A stretch of DNA of 64,000 nucleotides from Bacillota bacterium (GTDB lineage Bacteria; Bacillota; Clostridia; UBA1381), in contig JAIKVQ010000182.1 in NCBI GenBank assembly GCA_024685565.1, forward strand, positions 75,672 to 139,671, given 5' to 3'. A model generated the notes under the pieces. That model had not been told where the DNA came from. It saw only the letters and a program-made list of their open reading frames with translations, and searched no databases. Numbering within the stretch: the first letter of the stretch is position 1; each line of letters opens with the position of its first letter. Below, piece after piece: positions 10,066 to 26,489 of the stretch. Both the position numbers and the translations under genes were made by a program.

Positions 10066-10443
10066 ATGAATAAGAATACAAAAATCACTCTGCAGGAGCT
10101 TATAAAGCGCAAGGAGCAAATGCTCGAAAGTAAGAACAAGCTGAAAACGAAGGAACTTTATGTTGCTTCGCTTGACGGTACTATCACCGTTGAATGCCCG
10201 ACCTCTTCAATGGCAAAAGAGGCACAGGAAATGGACAACGGCGATGCGTATATGGTTTACCAGTGCGTGAAGGAGCCTAACCTTAAATCGAAGGAACTGC
10301 GTGATGCATTCGGTTGCGTAGAGCCTATGGAGATTGTCGAGAAGGTCTTTGCCGCAGGTGAAATTCCGCAGATTGCTTTGGAGTGTCTGAAGCTCGCAGG
10401 GTATGTTGACAGCGTAAAGGCGGTTGACGATATAAAAAACTAA
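10066..10443 (+). CDS. Tail assembly chaperone, 0-frame product (XkdN-like)
   Basis: Position between tube and tape measure; ends at a slippery heptamer. Confidence 0.85.
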   Translation: MNKNTKITLQELIKRKEQMLESKNKLKTKELYVASLDGTITVECPTSSMAKEAQEMDNGDAYMVYQCVKEPNLKSKELRDAFGCVEPMEIVEKVFAAGEIPQIALECLKLAGYVDSVKAVDDIKN

Positions 10444-10481
10444 TCCGAAGTGACGGAGAACTCGCAATGCTCTGTCACTTC
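10434..10481 (+). promoter_or_regulatory. -1 programmed ribosomal frameshift signal
   Basis: A AAA AAC in 0 frame at 10434-10440, spacer TAATCC, stem GAAGTGACGGAG (10447-10458)/CTCTGTCACTTC (10470-10481). Confidence 0.88.
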
Positions 10482-10613
10482 CTAAATCGTGGCATTTTGC
10501 CTGAACACATAATCAACCTCCCGTTCCCTGAAAAGGTCTTTTATAAAGGGTGTTACGAAATCTATGTGGAGGATGAATATGAGAAGTATAAAGCACTTTC
10601 AGGAGGTGGTTAA
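10440..10613 (+). CDS. -1 frame extension of tail assembly chaperone (57 codons, …LIRSDGELAMLCHFLNRGILPEHIINLPFPEKVFYKGCYEIYVEDEYEKYKALSGGG*)
   Basis: Open in the -1 frame from the slippery site to TAA 10611-10613, just before the tape measure start. Confidence 0.82.
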   Translation, partial: LIRSDGELAMLCHFLNRGILPEHIINLPFPEKVFYKGCYEIYVEDEYEKYKALSGGG

Positions 10614-10615
10614 CA

Positions 10616-12619
10616 GTGGCTAAAAATATCGGTGCAACACTATCTCTAAAGGACAATAACTTTTTTACCACTATCAAAAACGCCACCAACTCCCTGAACG
10701 GTTTTCAGAAGCATACGACAAACGCAACGGGTAGTCTTAAAAAGATGGGGTCACAAAGTAAAATGTCAGGTGATTCCCTCGCCTCTCTTGCGAAGAAGGC
10801 TCTCGGCGTTGTTGCGGCGTATGCTTCTTTTCGTCAGGTCATCTCGATAGGAAAAGAATGCGTGGAGCTTGCGCAGAAAGCCGAGGAAGCAAACGTCCGC
10901 TTGAACACCATAATGGAGCAAATCCCTGGCATCACGGACAGCGCAAAGGTAAGCGTGGCAAATCTCTGCAAAGAAATGTCACAGCAAACCACCATAAGCG
11001 CAACGGCACAAAAAAGCGGTGCTTCACAGCTTGCTTCATTCCAAATGTCGGCAGACAGTATTGAAAAACTACTTCCGCAGTTAAACAACTTGGCGGTCGC
11101 AAACTACGGTGTTAATGTTTCGTCCGACCAAATGATACAGGCGGCAAATATGCTCGGTAAAGCGTATTCAGGTCAAACAGGTGCGCTGTCCCGTGCAGGT
11201 ATTGTCATGACCGATGCACAGGCTAAAATGCTTAAAACAGGTGATGACGCAACAAAGACCGCCGCTTTGGTAGAAATCCTACAGCAGAACTTCGGTGACC
11301 TCGCAAAAGAGATGGCGAACACCAACGAGGGACGAATACTGCGGTTAAAAAATGCTGTGGCAGGAATTAAAACCACAGTCGGTCAGGCTCTGCTTCCTGC
11401 CGTTACGACCGTAGTCGGGTATATCGCAGATAAAATCCCGACAATTATGAATTTAGTCGAAGGTGCTATTGAGAAAGTAAAAGTGCCTTTGATTTGGCTG
11501 AAGGACAATGCACTCCCTCCGCTTATTTCCGCATTCGGTGCGGTTAAGGATTATGTCGTGAGCGCATTTGATAATATCAAGAGCGCAATTGAGCAAAACA
11601 GCGACAAAGTAAACGGCTTGGGAACGGTGGCTTCCAATATAGGAACTGTCCTTAAAAATGCGTTTGAACTTTGCAAACCGACCCTTATTTGGCTTAAGGA
11701 CACGGCTCTTCCTGCACTTGTTAATGTGTTCGGTACGGTCTTGAACGCTATAACAGGCATTGCAAATTTCTTTGTTAATAATTGGAGCCTTATAGCCCCA
11801 ATCATAATAGGAATTACAGCGGCTATTGTAGCTTATAAAGCAATCGTCCTTGTAGTAAATATCGTAACACAGGCGTGGACGGCAATTCAGACGGTTTTGA
11901 ACATAGTTTTAACGGCTAACCCGATAGGCATTATCATAGTTGCAATCGGTGCGCTTATTGCCATTGCCGTGGCACTATGGATGAATTGGGACAGCATCTG
12001 CCAGTGGTGTATGTCTGCCTTCGGTGCGGTCAAAGACTTCTTCGTTTCGGTCGGAACAGCAATCGGTGATTTCTTTGTCGGGCTATGGACTGGCATCAAG
12101 GATACAGCCGTTTCTGTTTGGACTGGCATTACAGGCTTTTTATCGGGCGCATGGAACACGATATCAAGTGCGGTTACTTCCGTCTTTACAGGAATCGGAA
12201 ACACAATCAAAAATGTGTGGAACGGCATCGTAAATTCGATTAAGGGTGCTATTAACAAAATCATCGGTGCTATCAATGGCATGATACGAGGTGCGGTAAG
12301 CGGAATAAACGGACTTATAAACGGCATCAACAATGTTACTGGTGCGGTTGGTATTCCTGCCATTCCGACATTTACTGCGCCGCAGATACCGCTTCTTGCA
12401 AACGGCGGTATTGTACGGACGGCAGGTAGCGTAATTGTGGGCGAAAAAGGCGCAGAGATGTTAACGCTCCCGAAGGGCGCACAGGTAACTCCACTTAATA
12501 AAACGACCAACACAAATAACAACGAATTCAATATTTACATTAACGCCGATGGCAAGTCGGTCGATTCTATTGTGAACGAGCTTGTTCCGAAATTAAAACT
12601 TGCACTCGCAAATCTGTAA
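10616..12619 (+). CDS. Phage tail tape measure protein
   Basis: 667 aa, hydrophobic centre, C-terminal VIVGEKGAEMLTLPKGAQVTPLNKT. Confidence 0.93.
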   Translation: MAKNIGATLSLKDNNFFTTIKNATNSLNGFQKHTTNATGSLKKMGSQSKMSGDSLASLAKKALGVVAAYASFRQVISIGKECVELAQKAEEANVRLNTIMEQIPGITDSAKVSVANLCKEMSQQTTISATAQKSGASQLASFQMSADSIEKLLPQLNNLAVANYGVNVSSDQMIQAANMLGKAYSGQTGALSRAGIVMTDAQAKMLKTGDDATKTAALVEILQQNFGDLAKEMANTNEGRILRLKNAVAGIKTTVGQALLPAVTTVVGYIADKIPTIMNLVEGAIEKVKVPLIWLKDNALPPLISAFGAVKDYVVSAFDNIKSAIEQNSDKVNGLGTVASNIGTVLKNAFELCKPTLIWLKDTALPALVNVFGTVLNAITGIANFFVNNWSLIAPIIIGITAAIVAYKAIVLVVNIVTQAWTAIQTVLNIVLTANPIGIIIVAIGALIAIAVALWMNWDSICQWCMSAFGAVKDFFVSVGTAIGDFFVGLWTGIKDTAVSVWTGITGFLSGAWNTISSAVTSVFTGIGNTIKNVWNGIVNSIKGAINKIIGAINGMIRGAVSGINGLINGINNVTGAVGIPAIPTFTAPQIPLLANGGIVRTAGSVIVGEKGAEMLTLPKGAQVTPLNKTTNTNNNEFNIYINADGKSVDSIVNELVPKLKLALANL

Positions 12620-12631
12620 GGAGGGATTTTA

Positions 12632-13027
12632 ATGGACATATTTTTGAGCGTTAATAACCGTGAACAGGTTATCTGCATTCCTGTCCTTCCTTCCGAGTTT
12701 ACCGTATCAAAGCCACGCTCCAACGAGGTTTTTGAAACGGTGTCGCAGGGTGAACTGAACTTAATCGGCAAAAGCGGATTAAAAAACATTTCATGGGATA
12801 GTTTCTTCCCATCAAGGGACTATCCCTTCTTGCGTGACAGAAGCGACACGGCTTTCGGTTATCTTTATACACTTGACACTTGGTACGAGCAGAAGCTCCC
12901 GATGCGGCTCATCATTACCGAAACGCCTATCAATATGGCTTGCACCATAGAGAGCTTTTCCTACACGATTAAGAAAGACGGCGATATGCATTACAGCATT
13001 ACGCTTTCGGAGGTGAAGTTAATCTAA
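12632..13027 (+). CDS. XkdP-like tail/baseplate protein without LysM domain
   Basis: Synteny and VICIPVLPSEFTVSKPRSNEVFETVSQGELNLIG. Confidence 0.75.
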   Translation: MDIFLSVNNREQVICIPVLPSEFTVSKPRSNEVFETVSQGELNLIGKSGLKNISWDSFFPSRDYPFLRDRSDTAFGYLYTLDTWYEQKLPMRLIITETPINMACTIESFSYTIKKDGDMHYSITLSEVKLI

Positions 13028-19459: not shown

Positions 19460-20326
19460 GTGGTGGCAACAATAGGTTTCACATACGATTATCCGTATAC
19501 CTACTACAACGAGGAACGAGGGCGTTTTACTTGGCAGTGGTCTGAATCGAGAGTGACTCTGAACAGGTGTTACACATACCCCGTTCAGTTTAATTCCTCA
19601 CTGCCGAAATGCTCACACATCAACCTTGACCTTGAAATTGAAAACACAGGAAGCGGAACGGTACTTGATAGAAGTTGGGATTTTTACGTTTATAGGGACA
19701 GCTACGGTTGGTATGAAGCTATGACATTTACACTCCCAAGTGACGGAAAATATACAATAGATTGTGATTTGAATGATTACAACATTTCTAAATTAGCCTT
19801 TGTGCCATCGTCAAATCCAGGGTCGAGCAGAACATGGACAACGGGATGCAGTATAAATCAAATTCGTATTACTGAAACTCTCGAAATAAACGAACTCGCA
19901 TCAGGCACATTTCAGTACGGAGTGTTCACAAACCGTTCGGGAGTAAAAAAGGATTTGACAGAAGTTTACGCCAATATAGGTGGAACGCTTACACAAGCAA
20001 CAAACATATTTGCTAATGCGAATGGTACGCTTGTCTCGCTTGCTCCTGTTTATTCAGCCTATTTGAGGACGGAATCTGAAATAATGTATTTATATAAATT
20101 CATTCCACCTTCGGACGGGACATATAAAATAAAAGTTAAGCGACAATCGGGAGACCACGAAATACGTTTTTATGACGGTGAATTCACACAACTTTATGAC
20201 GGATATTTTTATGACAGGAGCTTTTCCTTAACGGAAGGCTCCGTTTATTATATTACACTAACGCACTATTACGCCAATACCGATGTTGGCGAAAGCTATC
20301 TGCAAATTTATAAGGAGGGCGTATGA
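19460..20326 (+). CDS. Hypothetical tail/receptor-region protein
   Basis: ORF with GTG start between fibre and spike genes. Confidence 0.6.
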   Translation: MVATIGFTYDYPYTYYNEERGRFTWQWSESRVTLNRCYTYPVQFNSSLPKCSHINLDLEIENTGSGTVLDRSWDFYVYRDSYGWYEAMTFTLPSDGKYTIDCDLNDYNISKLAFVPSSNPGSSRTWTTGCSINQIRITETLEINELASGTFQYGVFTNRSGVKKDLTEVYANIGGTLTQATNIFANANGTLVSLAPVYSAYLRTESEIMYLYKFIPPSDGTYKIKVKRQSGDHEIRFYDGEFTQLYDGYFYDRSFSLTEGSVYYITLTHYYANTDVGESYLQIYKEGV

Positions 20327-23300
20327 AATTCAAATTCAAGGTCACGGGCGATAAGCTGACCGTAACCGAAAAAAACATACCAACATATACGGGCAATATC
20401 AACACCTATGAATGCGAGTTTGAATTCAGTCGTTCTTGGGGCGATATTCCCGTTAGAATAGCAGTTTTTAATAATGTGCTTGTTATTCTTGATAATAACA
20501 AATGCCATATTCCTGCGGAACTTCTCTGCAATCAAGGCAGGATTGATGTAGGCGTATTCGGCACAAACGAAAACGAAGCCTTAAAACGCATATCGACAAA
20601 CCTCATAAGCATTAGTGTTGCGACAGGTGCATACCGTGAGGGTGTTGCTCCCACAGAGCCGACCCCCGAATTTTGGGAACAAGCGATGCGGCTATGGGAA
20701 ACAAAAGCAGATGCCGATTCGGTGAATAGCAGATTGACCGTTTTAGATGAAGCGACAAGCAATTTAACGCAGAGTGTTTCTTCGCTTGAAGCGGCGCAAG
20801 CTGAAACAGCTTCTCGGCAAACTACAGCCGAAAACAAGATAAACGCACTTCAAGGTAGTACAGCACGGCACGAAACAAGTATATCGTCATTGACGGGGCG
20901 TGTTTCTACTCAAGAGGCAAATATGAATACTGCCAACACGAACATTGCAAATATTACTGCTCGAATGCAAAACGCTGAATCAAAGGCGCAGGAAATTGAG
21001 GATGCCGTTTCTGATATAGACGGTAGACTTGCCGAGGTCGAAACAGAAGCAGAAGCCATGTCGGAATCCATTGCAGATATTGAAGCGGATGTTCAGGCAA
21101 CCGACACAAATGTCGGTGAACTTGATTCTCGCCTTTCTGACGCAGAAGCGGACATTGAGGATATCAAAACCCGACCCCAAACGGGTCACACCTTTAACAG
21201 ACAATTCAACGTTTCGGGCGGTTTCGTTTCTGTTGGGAACAAGAAATCCGAAGTTGTTATTGACCTTCAGGACATAGTTTCGGCAGGGTCAGGCGGTTAT
21301 AGGGTGGATTTGCCAAGCGATAATGCGGCAAAAATAACATGGCGAGGTGTCACGGATATTGTCATACCAACCTCAACATCAACGAGCTATGGCTCTGTTT
21401 CAAATAAGTACGGGAAAATAATATCGTCCGTTAGTGGTACGCTTATAAGCCTCCCTGCAGGGGTCGATTATACGCCTGATATGGACTTGACAAAGTATGA
21501 CACTCTTTCGATTTTTCCGCTTATGCGAGATGAGTATGTTGATAAAGACGGGTACGCTTACAGTTTTGGGAATCGTCTCGTAACCTCCGTGGAGTCTGCC
21601 GCAGTAAGAACTTCATATTACCGTTGGCTCGATTCGGACGGCAACACACAAACATATTCGGATTGTGACGGCATCACCCTTGTAAATCTGTACTACAAAG
21701 ACAGCGGAAATTTCAACGACAACAGTATATGGAATCAGCGAACTTGGAATACGGGAACGGGACTGAACGGAAATGAGTATTACATCTTAAACGGACAGAC
21801 CCAAAACAAACTCGAACAGTTTACTACTTCATGGGGATTGTTCCCACACATAAGACCCTCAAGTAATGACGAAGTGCCGTATTTTTATGTGACGGTCAAA
21901 AAGGCTGACGGCAACCTGATACAGCTTAAAACGGTCAGCTATACCGAGTTTATGCTCGATAACGAACTGAATGTCGCAACGATGGATGTAAACGGCAGAG
22001 CGTACTTGAAACCGCATCCCGATTTGCTGTTTTCCTTGAACGGGAGCAAGTTTATTTGTATTGACGGCAAAATTGCATTCAAGAACATCTATGCGATTGT
22101 AAAAATGGAAGGGAGCGAACTTCACAAGTCTGCAGAGCCGATTGAGAACGTTATAAAAACCTACGCAAACGGCAAATTGTATTTTATTCCGCATGAAGGA
22201 GTATCTGAATACGCATCAGCCTTTGACGGGAGTTTTTATACTAAAAACTATGACATACTTCCCGAAGCCGCATATTCCGATATTCAGCTTGGCGAGGTTT
22301 ACGGCGGACATGAAGGAATGTTAAAGCATTCGATTATTCCTTTGCCGTCATCAAATCTCGGCACGAAGTATGCACCAAACGGACACATTTCAAACTCAAG
22401 GACTGTTCCGTTTCCGAGTGTCACAGGTACAAAGGGAACGCTCTATGCCACTAACGGGATGCGTATTGAAATTCCTGAATTGTTTTCGTACAAGACCGTT
22501 TATGACGAATGCAACGAAACACAACTTATAAAGCGTTTTTCAGATGAGGTACTGTTAACGGCTGATATGATTTTGAGCTTTGAGAGAATCGGAACGTCAA
22601 ACGGAGCGATTGCAAAATTCCGAATTCCAATCACATCTGATGAAAATGCTCCTGCGGTCAACAGCGCAAGCACAGCCGCAAACATTCTGCAATCAGGATT
22701 TGAAGTGAAAAGCGAAAACGACATAACGGCTTATACTACTTTCGGCTATGATAAATACGCAGTTGCTTTTACCTATGCGGCAAATTCGGATTATGCCGTT
22801 CTTACCATCGCACAAAACTATGGAGGTGGGCTTGCGGAACTGAAACAGGGCATAAAACTTGCACAGTATAAATTCAGGTACGAGCTTGCCGAGCCGAGGA
22901 TAAAACGGAATGTCGACAAGTTGTATATACAAAGCGGCGATTCGGTTTCATTTGTCTGCGATGACGGGTTTGTGTCCTATAAAAACATTCTGCTTAAGGC
23001 TCCTGAAAACACGGAAGCGGCTATCGGTATGATGCGTCCTACGGTGAAAAACATAAATGATTTGAATTACCGTGTGGAAAATATCGAAGTGTCTAAAGAC
23101 TACGGCAAAATTGGCAAGGGCGATGGTGTAACCGATGACACACAGGCAATTCAAACAGCCATCGGACAAACGGCAAATATCAACCCTTCGTTTTCTCGTG
23201 AAGTTGTTTTGACATCGGGCGTCTATCGAATTTCCTCGCCTCTTAAAATGAATGTCGAACAGATGACACTCCGTGGTGAAGGTGAAGTTATCCTGTGGGC

Positions 23301-25236
23301 AACCGAGGACAATTACGAGCCTATAATCCGTGTTATGGCAGGTGGCTGTAAAATCGAAAACATCAAAATTTATCTTGCAAAAACTGATGACGATACGAAC
23401 TACACCAATACGGGCAAACCCTACTACGGTTATTTGAAATCGTATAAAGAAACAGCCGCCGCAAATGCCGAAGGCAATGGTCACTATTGCGGAATTTATG
23501 TTGATACAGGCGGCGTGTTCGGTGACGGTGAAGGCGTGTACGGATTTTATAATCTCACAGTCAGGGACGTTACCGTTCAGGGCGCATTTCGATACTCGAC
23601 AAAATTCATCGAAAAATCCTACGGGGTGTACTTCCCGAAGACAGGCTACTGCTATTTCACAACCATAGACAATTGCTTTTTTAACTCGGTTATGTGCGGA
23701 CTTTACCTCGGTGGAGGTCAGCCGAGCGATGTGCATTGCAAATTCGATGTCGGTGAAGACATTTATGGACTTGGCGCATTAAGTAATGCTAACACTTTTC
23801 AGCACCGAAACTGCTATAACATAATGGGATGCAGGTATGGTGTGATTGCATACTCTTATGGGAACACGCTCCGAATTGACGGACAGGCATCGGGCGAGGA
23901 TAGTATGAATCCCTATGTTTACGATGGAGACGAACGAGAGATGCCGCTTGATGAAAATACCGCATGGGTGGAAAACACACAGGCATATCGGTACAATTCT
24001 GCAACGGACGAGTTTGAGGCGATTGAGGGCGAAACCGTTATGGGCTTTCCTGCCGAGATTGGACTTTGGCGTAAGGTTACCGATGCAGGTGTTTTAATGC
24101 ATGGCAAGAGCAACTTAATTGAAGAGATGATTTTTGACCACCAAAGGACAACCTACGGTGCTATTTATTTAACCTCTAAATCGTCTTGCTGTATGTATAC
24201 CTCGTATTCTGCTTCAAGCGTGGCTTACGGCAGAACGGGATTAACTTGGATGCGTGATATGTATATCCCTATTGAAAAGGATGCAAACGGCAAATACGTC
24301 AAATGGGCGTTGTGGCGTAGCAGGGACACAAGTGAGAATGCCACCGATTGCGGATTTAACAATAGAGCTATCAATGCAAACACACTTATAAACGAGCATC
24401 GCTTCGGCGCAGGTATGATTTCATCCCTTGATAAATACGGCTTAAGCCTTGCATTGCCGAGGACAATTGACAAAACGGACGATGTTGCGGCTTATGCGGA
24501 TAAGGTCGGGTCGGTCAAATGCTACTATGTCAATGCCAATAACGAGGAGGAAGAAATAACCGAGTTTTGGCGAGGGCATCCGCAAAAGAATAAAACGGTA
24601 ACGGACATTTCACCGATTTTCAGACCCGAATGCAACATTCCGCTTTTCGGAATAGCCACAGGCTTTACCTTCAAACAGATACCGACACATGACCACCCCA
24701 TAATCATCGAGATTGATTTCGGCAGAAGCATTATGGGTATTTCAAGCGGCATCATACGCTTTAACCGCTTTATTTGTGCGGATATTTGTTTTTCATATTT
24801 CATCAACGATGAATGGACTCCTTACTTCAACCGTTATGAAGGAAATATGAATGCCGAGTTTTTATGGAACACCTACAATTTCAACGGAACTCATAACGCT
24901 CGCCATTTAATCGATAAGGTGCGCATAAAACTCGGTGATGCGTATATGCCGATGCTCGAAAATGCAGTTAATTACAATGACGGAGAAACATCAAAAACAT
25001 ATCCTGCAGGGACGAAATATAATCCCGATGGTTTTGTTGGTATAAGCAAAATCTTTATTGCCGATGTGAACGGTGGCGGTCGTGCTTTTATGACAAAAAG
25101 CGGAGGTGACGTTTATGGGGACATAAATGCGGATGGACGTTTGGAAAGCAAAAGCGGTATTGTAAAGCTCGGCAATACCTCGCTTACGGAAGAGCAGTTA
25201 CAAAAACTATTAAATCTGATTGATGAGGAGGATTGA
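20323..25236 (+). CDS. Giant tail spike (1637 aa): BppU-like N-terminus, coiled coil, pectate-lyase-type beta-helix
   Basis: VTEKNIPTYTGNINTYECEFEFSRSW; heptad-rich 150-270; DYGKIGKGDGVTDDTQAIQTAI. Confidence 0.85.
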   Translation: MKFKFKVTGDKLTVTEKNIPTYTGNINTYECEFEFSRSWGDIPVRIAVFNNVLVILDNNKCHIPAELLCNQGRIDVGVFGTNENEALKRISTNLISISVATGAYREGVAPTEPTPEFWEQAMRLWETKADADSVNSRLTVLDEATSNLTQSVSSLEAAQAETASRQTTAENKINALQGSTARHETSISSLTGRVSTQEANMNTANTNIANITARMQNAESKAQEIEDAVSDIDGRLAEVETEAEAMSESIADIEADVQATDTNVGELDSRLSDAEADIEDIKTRPQTGHTFNRQFNVSGGFVSVGNKKSEVVIDLQDIVSAGSGGYRVDLPSDNAAKITWRGVTDIVIPTSTSTSYGSVSNKYGKIISSVSGTLISLPAGVDYTPDMDLTKYDTLSIFPLMRDEYVDKDGYAYSFGNRLVTSVESAAVRTSYYRWLDSDGNTQTYSDCDGITLVNLYYKDSGNFNDNSIWNQRTWNTGTGLNGNEYYILNGQTQNKLEQFTTSWGLFPHIRPSSNDEVPYFYVTVKKADGNLIQLKTVSYTEFMLDNELNVATMDVNGRAYLKPHPDLLFSLNGSKFICIDGKIAFKNIYAIVKMEGSELHKSAEPIENVIKTYANGKLYFIPHEGVSEYASAFDGSFYTKNYDILPEAAYSDIQLGEVYGGHEGMLKHSIIPLPSSNLGTKYAPNGHISNSRTVPFPSVTGTKGTLYATNGMRIEIPELFSYKTVYDECNETQLIKRFSDEVLLTADMILSFERIGTSNGAIAKFRIPITSDENAPAVNSASTAANILQSGFEVKSENDITAYTTFGYDKYAVAFTYAANSDYAVLTIAQNYGGGLAELKQGIKLAQYKFRYELAEPRIKRNVDKLYIQSGDSVSFVCDDGFVSYKNILLKAPENTEAAIGMMRPTVKNINDLNYRVENIEVSKDYGKIGKGDGVTDDTQAIQTAIGQTANINPSFSREVVLTSGVYRISSPLKMNVEQMTLRGEGEVILWATEDNYEPIIRVMAGGCKIENIKIYLAKTDDDTNYTNTGKPYYGYLKSYKETAAANAEGNGHYCGIYVDTGGVFGDGEGVYGFYNLTVRDVTVQGAFRYSTKFIEKSYGVYFPKTGYCYFTTIDNCFFNSVMCGLYLGGGQPSDVHCKFDVGEDIYGLGALSNANTFQHRNCYNIMGCRYGVIAYSYGNTLRIDGQASGEDSMNPYVYDGDEREMPLDENTAWVENTQAYRYNSATDEFEAIEGETVMGFPAEIGLWRKVTDAGVLMHGKSNLIEEMIFDHQRTTYGAIYLTSKSSCCMYTSYSASSVAYGRTGLTWMRDMYIPIEKDANGKYVKWALWRSRDTSENATDCGFNNRAINANTLINEHRFGAGMISSLDKYGLSLALPRTIDKTDDVAAYADKVGSVKCYYVNANNEEEEITEFWRGHPQKNKTVTDISPIFRPECNIPLFGIATGFTFKQIPTHDHPIIIEIDFGRSIMGISSGIIRFNRFICADICFSYFINDEWTPYFNRYEGNMNAEFLWNTYNFNGTHNARHLIDKVRIKLGDAYMPMLENAVNYNDGETSKTYPAGTKYNPDGFVGISKIFIADVNGGGRAFMTKSGGDVYGDINADGRLESKSGIVKLGNTSLTEEQLQKLLNLIDEED

Positions 25237-25655: not shown

Positions 25656-26489
25656 ATGCAGATTATTGAAAGCATTTTGACGAAAAACCCCTGTTATACC
25701 GCAGGACGGACAATCACGGTAAAGGGGCTGATGCTCCATTCCGTAGGCTGTCCGCAACCTAATGCCCAAGTTTTTATTCAGAATTGGAATCGCCCTGATT
25801 ACAAGAATGCCTGTGTTCACGGTTTTATTGACGGAAACACAGGCATTATTTATCAAACGCTCCCGTGGAATCACAGAGGTTGGCACGGCGGCGGCTCTTC
25901 CAATAACACGCATATCGGAGTTGAAATGTGCGAGCCTTCCTGTATTAAGTACACACAAGGCTCCTCCTTCACCTGCTCCGATAAAGCGGCGGCACAGGCT
26001 TCGGTCAAAAAGACTTATAATGCCGCCGTTGAGCTTTTTGCCATGCTCTGCAAAAAATACAATCTAAATCCTATGAAGGACATTGTTTCTCACCGTGAAG
26101 GTCATGCGATTGGCATAGCGACAAATCACGGTGACCCTGAACACCTTTGGAAAGGCGTGGGGCTTAATTACACGATGGACGGCTTCAGAGCCGATGTAAA
26201 ATACACTATGGAAAGCGAGGATGAAAAACCTATGACTACGGAGGAAAGAACGAAGTTTAACAAACTTGTCGATGCGGTCGGCACTCTTGCTGAAAAGGTC
26301 GACAAACTGGAGCATAAAATGATTTACGCTTGGGTTGACGACAATATGCCCGAATGGGCAAAGCCTACCATTACGAAGCTCATCAATAAAGGCTATCTCA
26401 AAGGCGATGAGGAAGGAAAACTAAATATTGATGATAATATGCTCCGTATGCTCGTCATTAATGACCGTGCAGGAATATATGGTGAATAA
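25656..26489 (+). CDS. N-acetylmuramoyl-L-alanine amidase endolysin
   Basis: GLMLHSVGCPQPNA, WHGGGSSNNTHIGVEMCEP, SHREGHAIGIATNHGDPEHLW. Confidence 0.93.
   Translation: MQIIESILTKNPCYTAGRTITVKGLMLHSVGCPQPNAQVFIQNWNRPDYKNACVHGFIDGNTGIIYQTLPWNHRGWHGGGSSNNTHIGVEMCEPSCIKYTQGSSFTCSDKAAAQASVKKTYNAAVELFAMLCKKYNLNPMKDIVSHREGHAIGIATNHGDPEHLWKGVGLNYTMDGFRADVKYTMESEDEKPMTTEERTKFNKLVDAVGTLAEKVDKLEHKMIYAWVDDNMPEWAKPTITKLINKGYLKGDEEGKLNIDDNMLRMLVINDRAGIYGE

Follow-up and report, generated by a model that had tools for sequence, protein, structure and literature searches.

In tailed phages, the production of a short and a long tail assembly chaperone from one gene by means of a frameshift is standard. The -1 frameshift giving rise to gpG and gpGT of phage lambda was, together with its equivalents in long-tailed phages, reportedly described by Xu, Hendrix and Duda in 2004. 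In lambda, the long form constitutes the minority product and links the tape measure with the tube protein (PMC5009743). A counterpart in a phage of the Bacillota is found in the Bacillus phage SPP1, where genes 17.5/17.5* encode a tail chaperone ahead of the tape measure gene and a -1 frameshift is predicted (PMC6316719).

The locus analyzed here very probably operates in the same manner: judged by its sequence, it would employ a -1 programmed ribosomal frameshift to yield a pair of proteins of the gpG/gpGT type. It is located in a stretch of 64,000 nt, in the following termed the window, which according to Pfam and phrog profile matches holds a contractile-tail prophage encompassing genes for terminase, portal, protease, capsid, connectors, sheath, tube, chaperone, tape measure and baseplate proteins as well as an amidase and an integrase. 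The tail genes are arranged in the order sheath (8548), tube (9619, PF09393), chaperone (10066) and tape measure (10616), so that the chaperone gene occupies the place between tail tube and tape measure genes that is characteristic of gpG/gpGT-type systems. The features of the locus are compiled in Table 1. Two further observations concern the surrounding genes. Positions 2-131 of phrog_23201 are matched by a small ORF following the tape measure gene (12632-13027), and positions 120-223 of this family by the C-terminus of the amidase (25656-26489), which gives the impression of one known protein divided over a tail gene and the endolysin. An ORF of 1637 residues at the late region's end (20323-25236) displays weak, short matches only, to tape-measure and other tail families.

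Table 1. Features of the frameshift locus, numbered from the first nucleotide of the window.
Feature	Position	Strand	Basis
0-frame ORF, 125 aa, XkdN-like tail assembly chaperone (gpG-equivalent)	10066..10443	+	PF08890, phrog_4976
Weak Shine-Dalgarno-like AAAGGCGG, possible minor stimulator	10416..10423	+	10 nt upstream of heptamer
Slippery heptamer A_AAA_AAC, 0-frame phase	10434..10440	+	sequence
-1 frame extension, 57 codons + TAA, T-like domain of the predicted fusion (LIRSDGELAMLCHFLNRG...ALSGGG)	10440..10613	+	translation, pN/pS
0-frame stop TAA, directly 3' of heptamer, part of 6-nt spacer	10441..10443	+	sequence
Putative stimulatory hairpin, 12-bp stem of 5' arm GAAGTGACGGAG (10447-10458) and 3' arm CTCTGTCACTTC (10470-10481), 11-nt loop (10459-10469)	10447..10481	+	fold and covariation
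Tape measure protein, GTG start	10616..12619	+	phrog_58, E 1.4e-44

The identity of the 0-frame product is well defined, as it scores 42.9 bits against PF08890 (Phage_TAC_5, XkdN-like; curated cut-off 27) and matches phrog_4976, annotated as 'tail assembly chaperone', with an E-value of 3.9e-41. Moreover, its AlphaFold model (pLDDT 89) shares the fold of YqbN from B. subtilis (3KLU; Foldseek probability 1.00, E 6.5e-4, TM 0.56-0.59). The C-terminus of the chaperone (...IKN*) coincides directly with the slippery site, and since the last codons read ATA AAA AAC TAA, the heptamer is in phase for tandem slippage. An in-phase heptamer of the X_XXY_YYZ type is hence present near the end of the 0-frame ORF, where it opens a -1 ORF. 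The long frames of the window contain 183 such in-phase heptamers, but only the one at the end of the chaperone gene has a 0-frame stop next to it together with an open -1 extension and a strong stem. The designation 'textbook' frameshift, chosen in the first-pass annotation, is supported overall but requires one qualification: in E. coli, the heptamer A_AAA_AAC is much less shift-prone than A_AAA_AAG (reviewed in PMC5009743).

Downstream of the heptamer, the spacer TAATCC (10441-10446) separates the slippery site by 6 nt from the putative hairpin, and the usual spacing for such stimulators is 6-9 nt (PMC5009743). The stem comprises one G-U pair (10455 with 10473) among its 12 pairs and the hairpin folds with an MFE of -18.1 kcal/mol (z = -2.99); a stem of equal strength occurred at none of 1500 random window positions. 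The heptamer with its phase and spacer as well as the dimensions of stem and loop, as given in the first-pass annotation, proved exact when read from the sequence. An Rfam search of the frameshift region yielded a weak, meaningless match only. As an additional stimulator, the Shine-Dalgarno-like element upstream of the heptamer was considered (best anti-SD duplex in the window, -6.8); since the excess of such elements across the family over synonymous shuffles is small (p 0.018), an upstream stimulator is not claimed despite its presence in the window.

Conservation in related phages had been suggested as a check on the frameshift and was assessed by a survey of same-family genomes, viral contigs, genome contigs, a phylum-wide PF08890 search in Bacillota and annotated phages, which gave 110 non-redundant usable loci across Bacillota. 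The check turned out in favor of the signal, as an in-phase heptamer is present in 109 of these loci and its phase, the extension and the stem are conserved as well. The sequence AAAAAAC accounts for 105 of the heptamers and AAAAAAG for four, while the distance to the 0-frame stop is 0 nt in 91 of the 109 loci, 3 nt in 17 and 54 nt in the remaining one. Among 70 same-family genomes, 16 carry the chaperone gene, some of them twice, and AAAAAAC is in phase in each of the resulting 19 loci. The single locus devoid of an in-phase heptamer belongs to the Streptococcus phage EJ-1, in which one extra A upstream of A6C, relative to phage MismyG, places chaperone and extension in a single ORF; unless the deposited sequence is in error, the fusion is natural. 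The genome that harbors the window itself possesses a second XkdN-type chaperone gene (C92:27263-27625), situated about 58 kb upstream on the same contig and 65% identical. This copy features its own A_AAA_AAC, -1 extension and a hairpin in a different register, followed by the start of a tape-measure-like ORF, so that two tail clusters reside on one contig.

Structure downstream of the heptamer is likewise a property of the family. In a simple ungapped search, in which the strongest stem with a 5' arm starting in each 6-nt bin was recorded, a single sharp peak emerged 6-11 nt after the heptamer, with a mean best-stem energy of -13.2 kcal/mol over 72 loci as opposed to a background of -2.4 kcal/mol (sd 0.53) elsewhere in the same loci. 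Stems below -9 kcal/mol occupied the peak bin in 78% of the 72 loci, compared with a few per cent in the background. When the extension was shuffled among synonymous codons, thereby keeping both protein and codon usage, the observed stems of 95 loci averaged -13.6 kcal/mol versus -5.7 kcal/mol for the shuffles, and 60 of the 95 loci reached p 0.05 or better; on the other hand, 20 of the 95 fell short of -9 kcal/mol and are without a convincing stem by this simple search. Covariation was evaluated in 24 same-register sequences, which were chosen because they pair in the register of the window: 97.2% of their cells are paired and double compensatory changes are seen in 11 of the 12 pairs, a level of pairing and covariation attained by none of 500 shuffles and by no slid version of the register. 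The sequence of the window thus points to a putatively stimulatory stem 6 nt downstream of the slippery site with support from covariation, i.e. the downstream structure typical of gpG/gpGT-type signals.

The position of the 5' arm is 4-9 nt from the heptamer in nearly all strong-stem loci, whereas that of the 3' arm differs between clades. Loops of 11 nt occur in the clade of the window and loops of about 15-17 nt in that of the second copy. Brevibacillus phages have loops of about 25 nt, the PBSX-like PBP180 and Streptococcus phage MismyG of about 46-48 nt. Still longer ones are present in others, among them C. difficile phage JD033 and a Terrisporobacter phage (about 55-78 nt), and in Lactobacillus phage phiAQ113 (93 nt), the family as a whole ranging from 4 to over 90 nt. 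In the Terrisporobacter, JD033 and phiAQ113 phages, the local hairpin is replaced by stems of 12-15 bp, the arms of which lie 74-93 nt apart. On a tree of chaperone plus extension, at least 22 changes of register and at least 10 changes between short and long loop classes were counted, these numbers being approximate because the tree was built quickly and contains many weak forks, and because the registers stem from the ungapped search. The existence of several stem registers holds regardless of the tree.

Taken together, the following course of events would explain the locus. Ribosomes translating the chaperone gene would meet A_AAA_AAC with the stem 6 nt downstream lying at the mRNA entrance and opposing its unwinding. 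Most of them would stop at the adjacent UAA and release the 125-residue chaperone, while a minority would move back by one base (AAA-AAC to AAA-AAA) and continue for 57 further codons, giving a predicted chaperone-T fusion of about 182 residues. In analogy to lambda gpG/gpGT, the tape measure protein may be coated by the short form, and the long form, which is the rarer of the two, may recruit tail-tube subunits, with both forms leaving the mature tail. Slippage in this host, its rate and the roles of both forms in assembly are what we infer from the features described. A more far-reaching proposal regards the XkdN-family signal as a design of its own: a near-invariant A_AAA_AAC, weak in E. 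coli, would directly adjoin the 0-frame stop and thereby put slippage in competition with termination (stop in the A site, with the P-site tRNA-Asn slipping). The driving force would come from a stem that keeps its 5' arm 4-9 nt downstream but has repeatedly exchanged the 3' partner, 4 to over 90 nt away. We consider this proposal rather unlikely in its entirety.

The -1 frame is open from 10440 to the TAA at 10611-10613 and ends 2 nt before the GTG of the tape measure gene, precisely as the first-pass annotation had stated for its 57 codons and as translation confirms; the AGGAGG ribosome-binding site of the tape measure gene is encoded inside its last codons. When the window was compared with 16 close relatives, pS in this frame amounted to 0.59-0.88 against a pN of 0.05-0.17, whereas the other two frames of the same DNA gave ratios above 1 in the same comparison. 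The extension evolves, as this substitution pattern indicates, as a protein under purifying selection, which is an indirect sign of its translation. Aligned extensions share the consensus LI..D.EL.MLHHYLQRG and the AlphaFold model of the extension is helical (pLDDT 93). Such a protein could in principle be the product of a separate small gene that starts at ATG 10467 with GGAG (10455-10458) as its ribosome-binding site, or that is reached by re-initiation after the UAA. In line with this, the GGAG is located 8 nt before the ATG in the window, the -1 ORF appears as a hypothetical protein of its own in several phage records and an ATG is present at codon 10 in 35 of 95 relatives. However, the conserved part of the extensions begins at the heptamer rather than at a start codon, so that the codons ahead of ATG 10467 are retained as well, while the first 30 codons contain no ATG in 32 of the 95 relatives and a start of any kind preceded by a Shine-Dalgarno-like motif is seen in just 28 of the 95. 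The GGAG is moreover buried in the 5' arm of the hairpin, with the ATG in the loop and at the edge of the 3' arm, the fusion of EJ-1 is one ORF, and the in-phase heptamer in 109 of 110 loci would be left unexplained. An independent start at ATG 10467 was accordingly rejected on account of codon conservation and the absence of the ATG in many relatives, and a separate gene in either form appears highly improbable.

An origin of the fusion prior to translation was weighed in the same way. Slippage of RNA polymerase on runs of A is a known mechanism, and the six-A run found in 109 of 110 relatives might in this manner give rise to mixed mRNAs. Yet the polymerase is indifferent to reading phase, while the phase is that of A_AAA_AAC or A_AAA_AAG in every case. 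The run never exceeds six A and the preceding base is T or C in all 109 loci. In addition, the conserved stem, being positioned 4-9 nt downstream, is not yet transcribed while the polymerase resides on the run. Transcriptional slippage was thus rejected on phase, run length and stem position, and we regard it as scarcely credible. The notion of a chance A6C at a gene end beside a degenerate remnant, be it a decayed fusion or a sequencing error, accords with the chance-level frequency of AAAAAAC in the window (42 copies versus 40.1 expected from shuffled DNA), owing to which the heptamer alone means little, but is of negligible probability given that phase, stop position, extension protein and stem are conserved among independent genomes and viral contigs, about 110 loci in all, and that the extension is under strong purifying selection.

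Ribosomal frameshifting, the reading preferred here, would provide a large family of Bacillota myophages and phage-like elements with a second chaperone product that is omitted from their records: the 16 phage records of the XkdN family that were inspected, representing 15 phages, include no annotated joined frameshift product, and in several of them the -1 ORF is annotated as a separate hypothetical protein. A role can also be suggested for the unnamed family phrog_10264 (function not known, 57 positions). It matches 38 of 51 aligned extensions and hence probably is the T-like domain that frameshifting would add to the fusion, predicted as a gene of its own. The T domain itself gave no match to PDB sequences and nothing significant in a fold search of predicted viral structures. 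No report of XkdN frameshifting was found in the open-access papers searched; Xu et al. 2004 may include one, and no priority is claimed. The traits that run through the family are that A_AAA_AAC is used almost exclusively, that the stop lies 0 or 3 nt behind it and that the stem relocates. The XkdN family constitutes a natural data set on the maintenance of a frameshift stem across replacements of its partner strand, and on why these phages retain A_AAA_AAC beside a stop.

With regard to described systems, the frameshift of tail chaperones is already known and the locus of the window is a new member. By the Pfam cut-off and by fold, its chaperone belongs to the XkdN/YqbN family of PBSX-like and other Bacillota myophages (PF08890; 3KLU), with which it shares the gene order and from which it shows no difference in kind. 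The fold of the HK97 tail assembly chaperone (2OB9) is possibly related (Foldseek probability 0.82-0.90, TM 0.46-0.53), though the E-value is not significant (0.25-0.28) and sequence identity is 12-13%. Like SPP1 17.5/17.5*, the locus represents a tail chaperone of a Bacillota phage with a predicted -1 frameshift ahead of the tape measure gene; SPP1, in contrast, is a siphophage with the heptamer UUUUUUC and a much longer frameshift product, comprising 297 residues against 173 of the short form (PMC6316719). The term 'gpGT-equivalent' used in the first-pass annotation is right for the system; a function of the T part resembling that of lambda gpT is assumed by analogy, since the structure searches matched it to no known T domain. 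In comparison with lambda, the extension is short (57 codons) and a sequence relation of its T part to gpT was not found. The XkdN family further differs from lambda-type systems by its nearly invariant heptamer A_AAA_AAC and by a 0-frame stop that follows 0 or 3 nt after it, whereas the mean heptamer-to-stop distances reported with PRFect amount to 36 nt for the Xu set and to 26 nt for SEA-PHAGES (PMC10885494). What the window and lambda gpG/gpGT have in common is the tail chaperone gene directly before the tape measure gene, the in-phase X_XXY_YYZ near its 3' end with structure downstream, and a -1 extension that ends at the tape measure gene.
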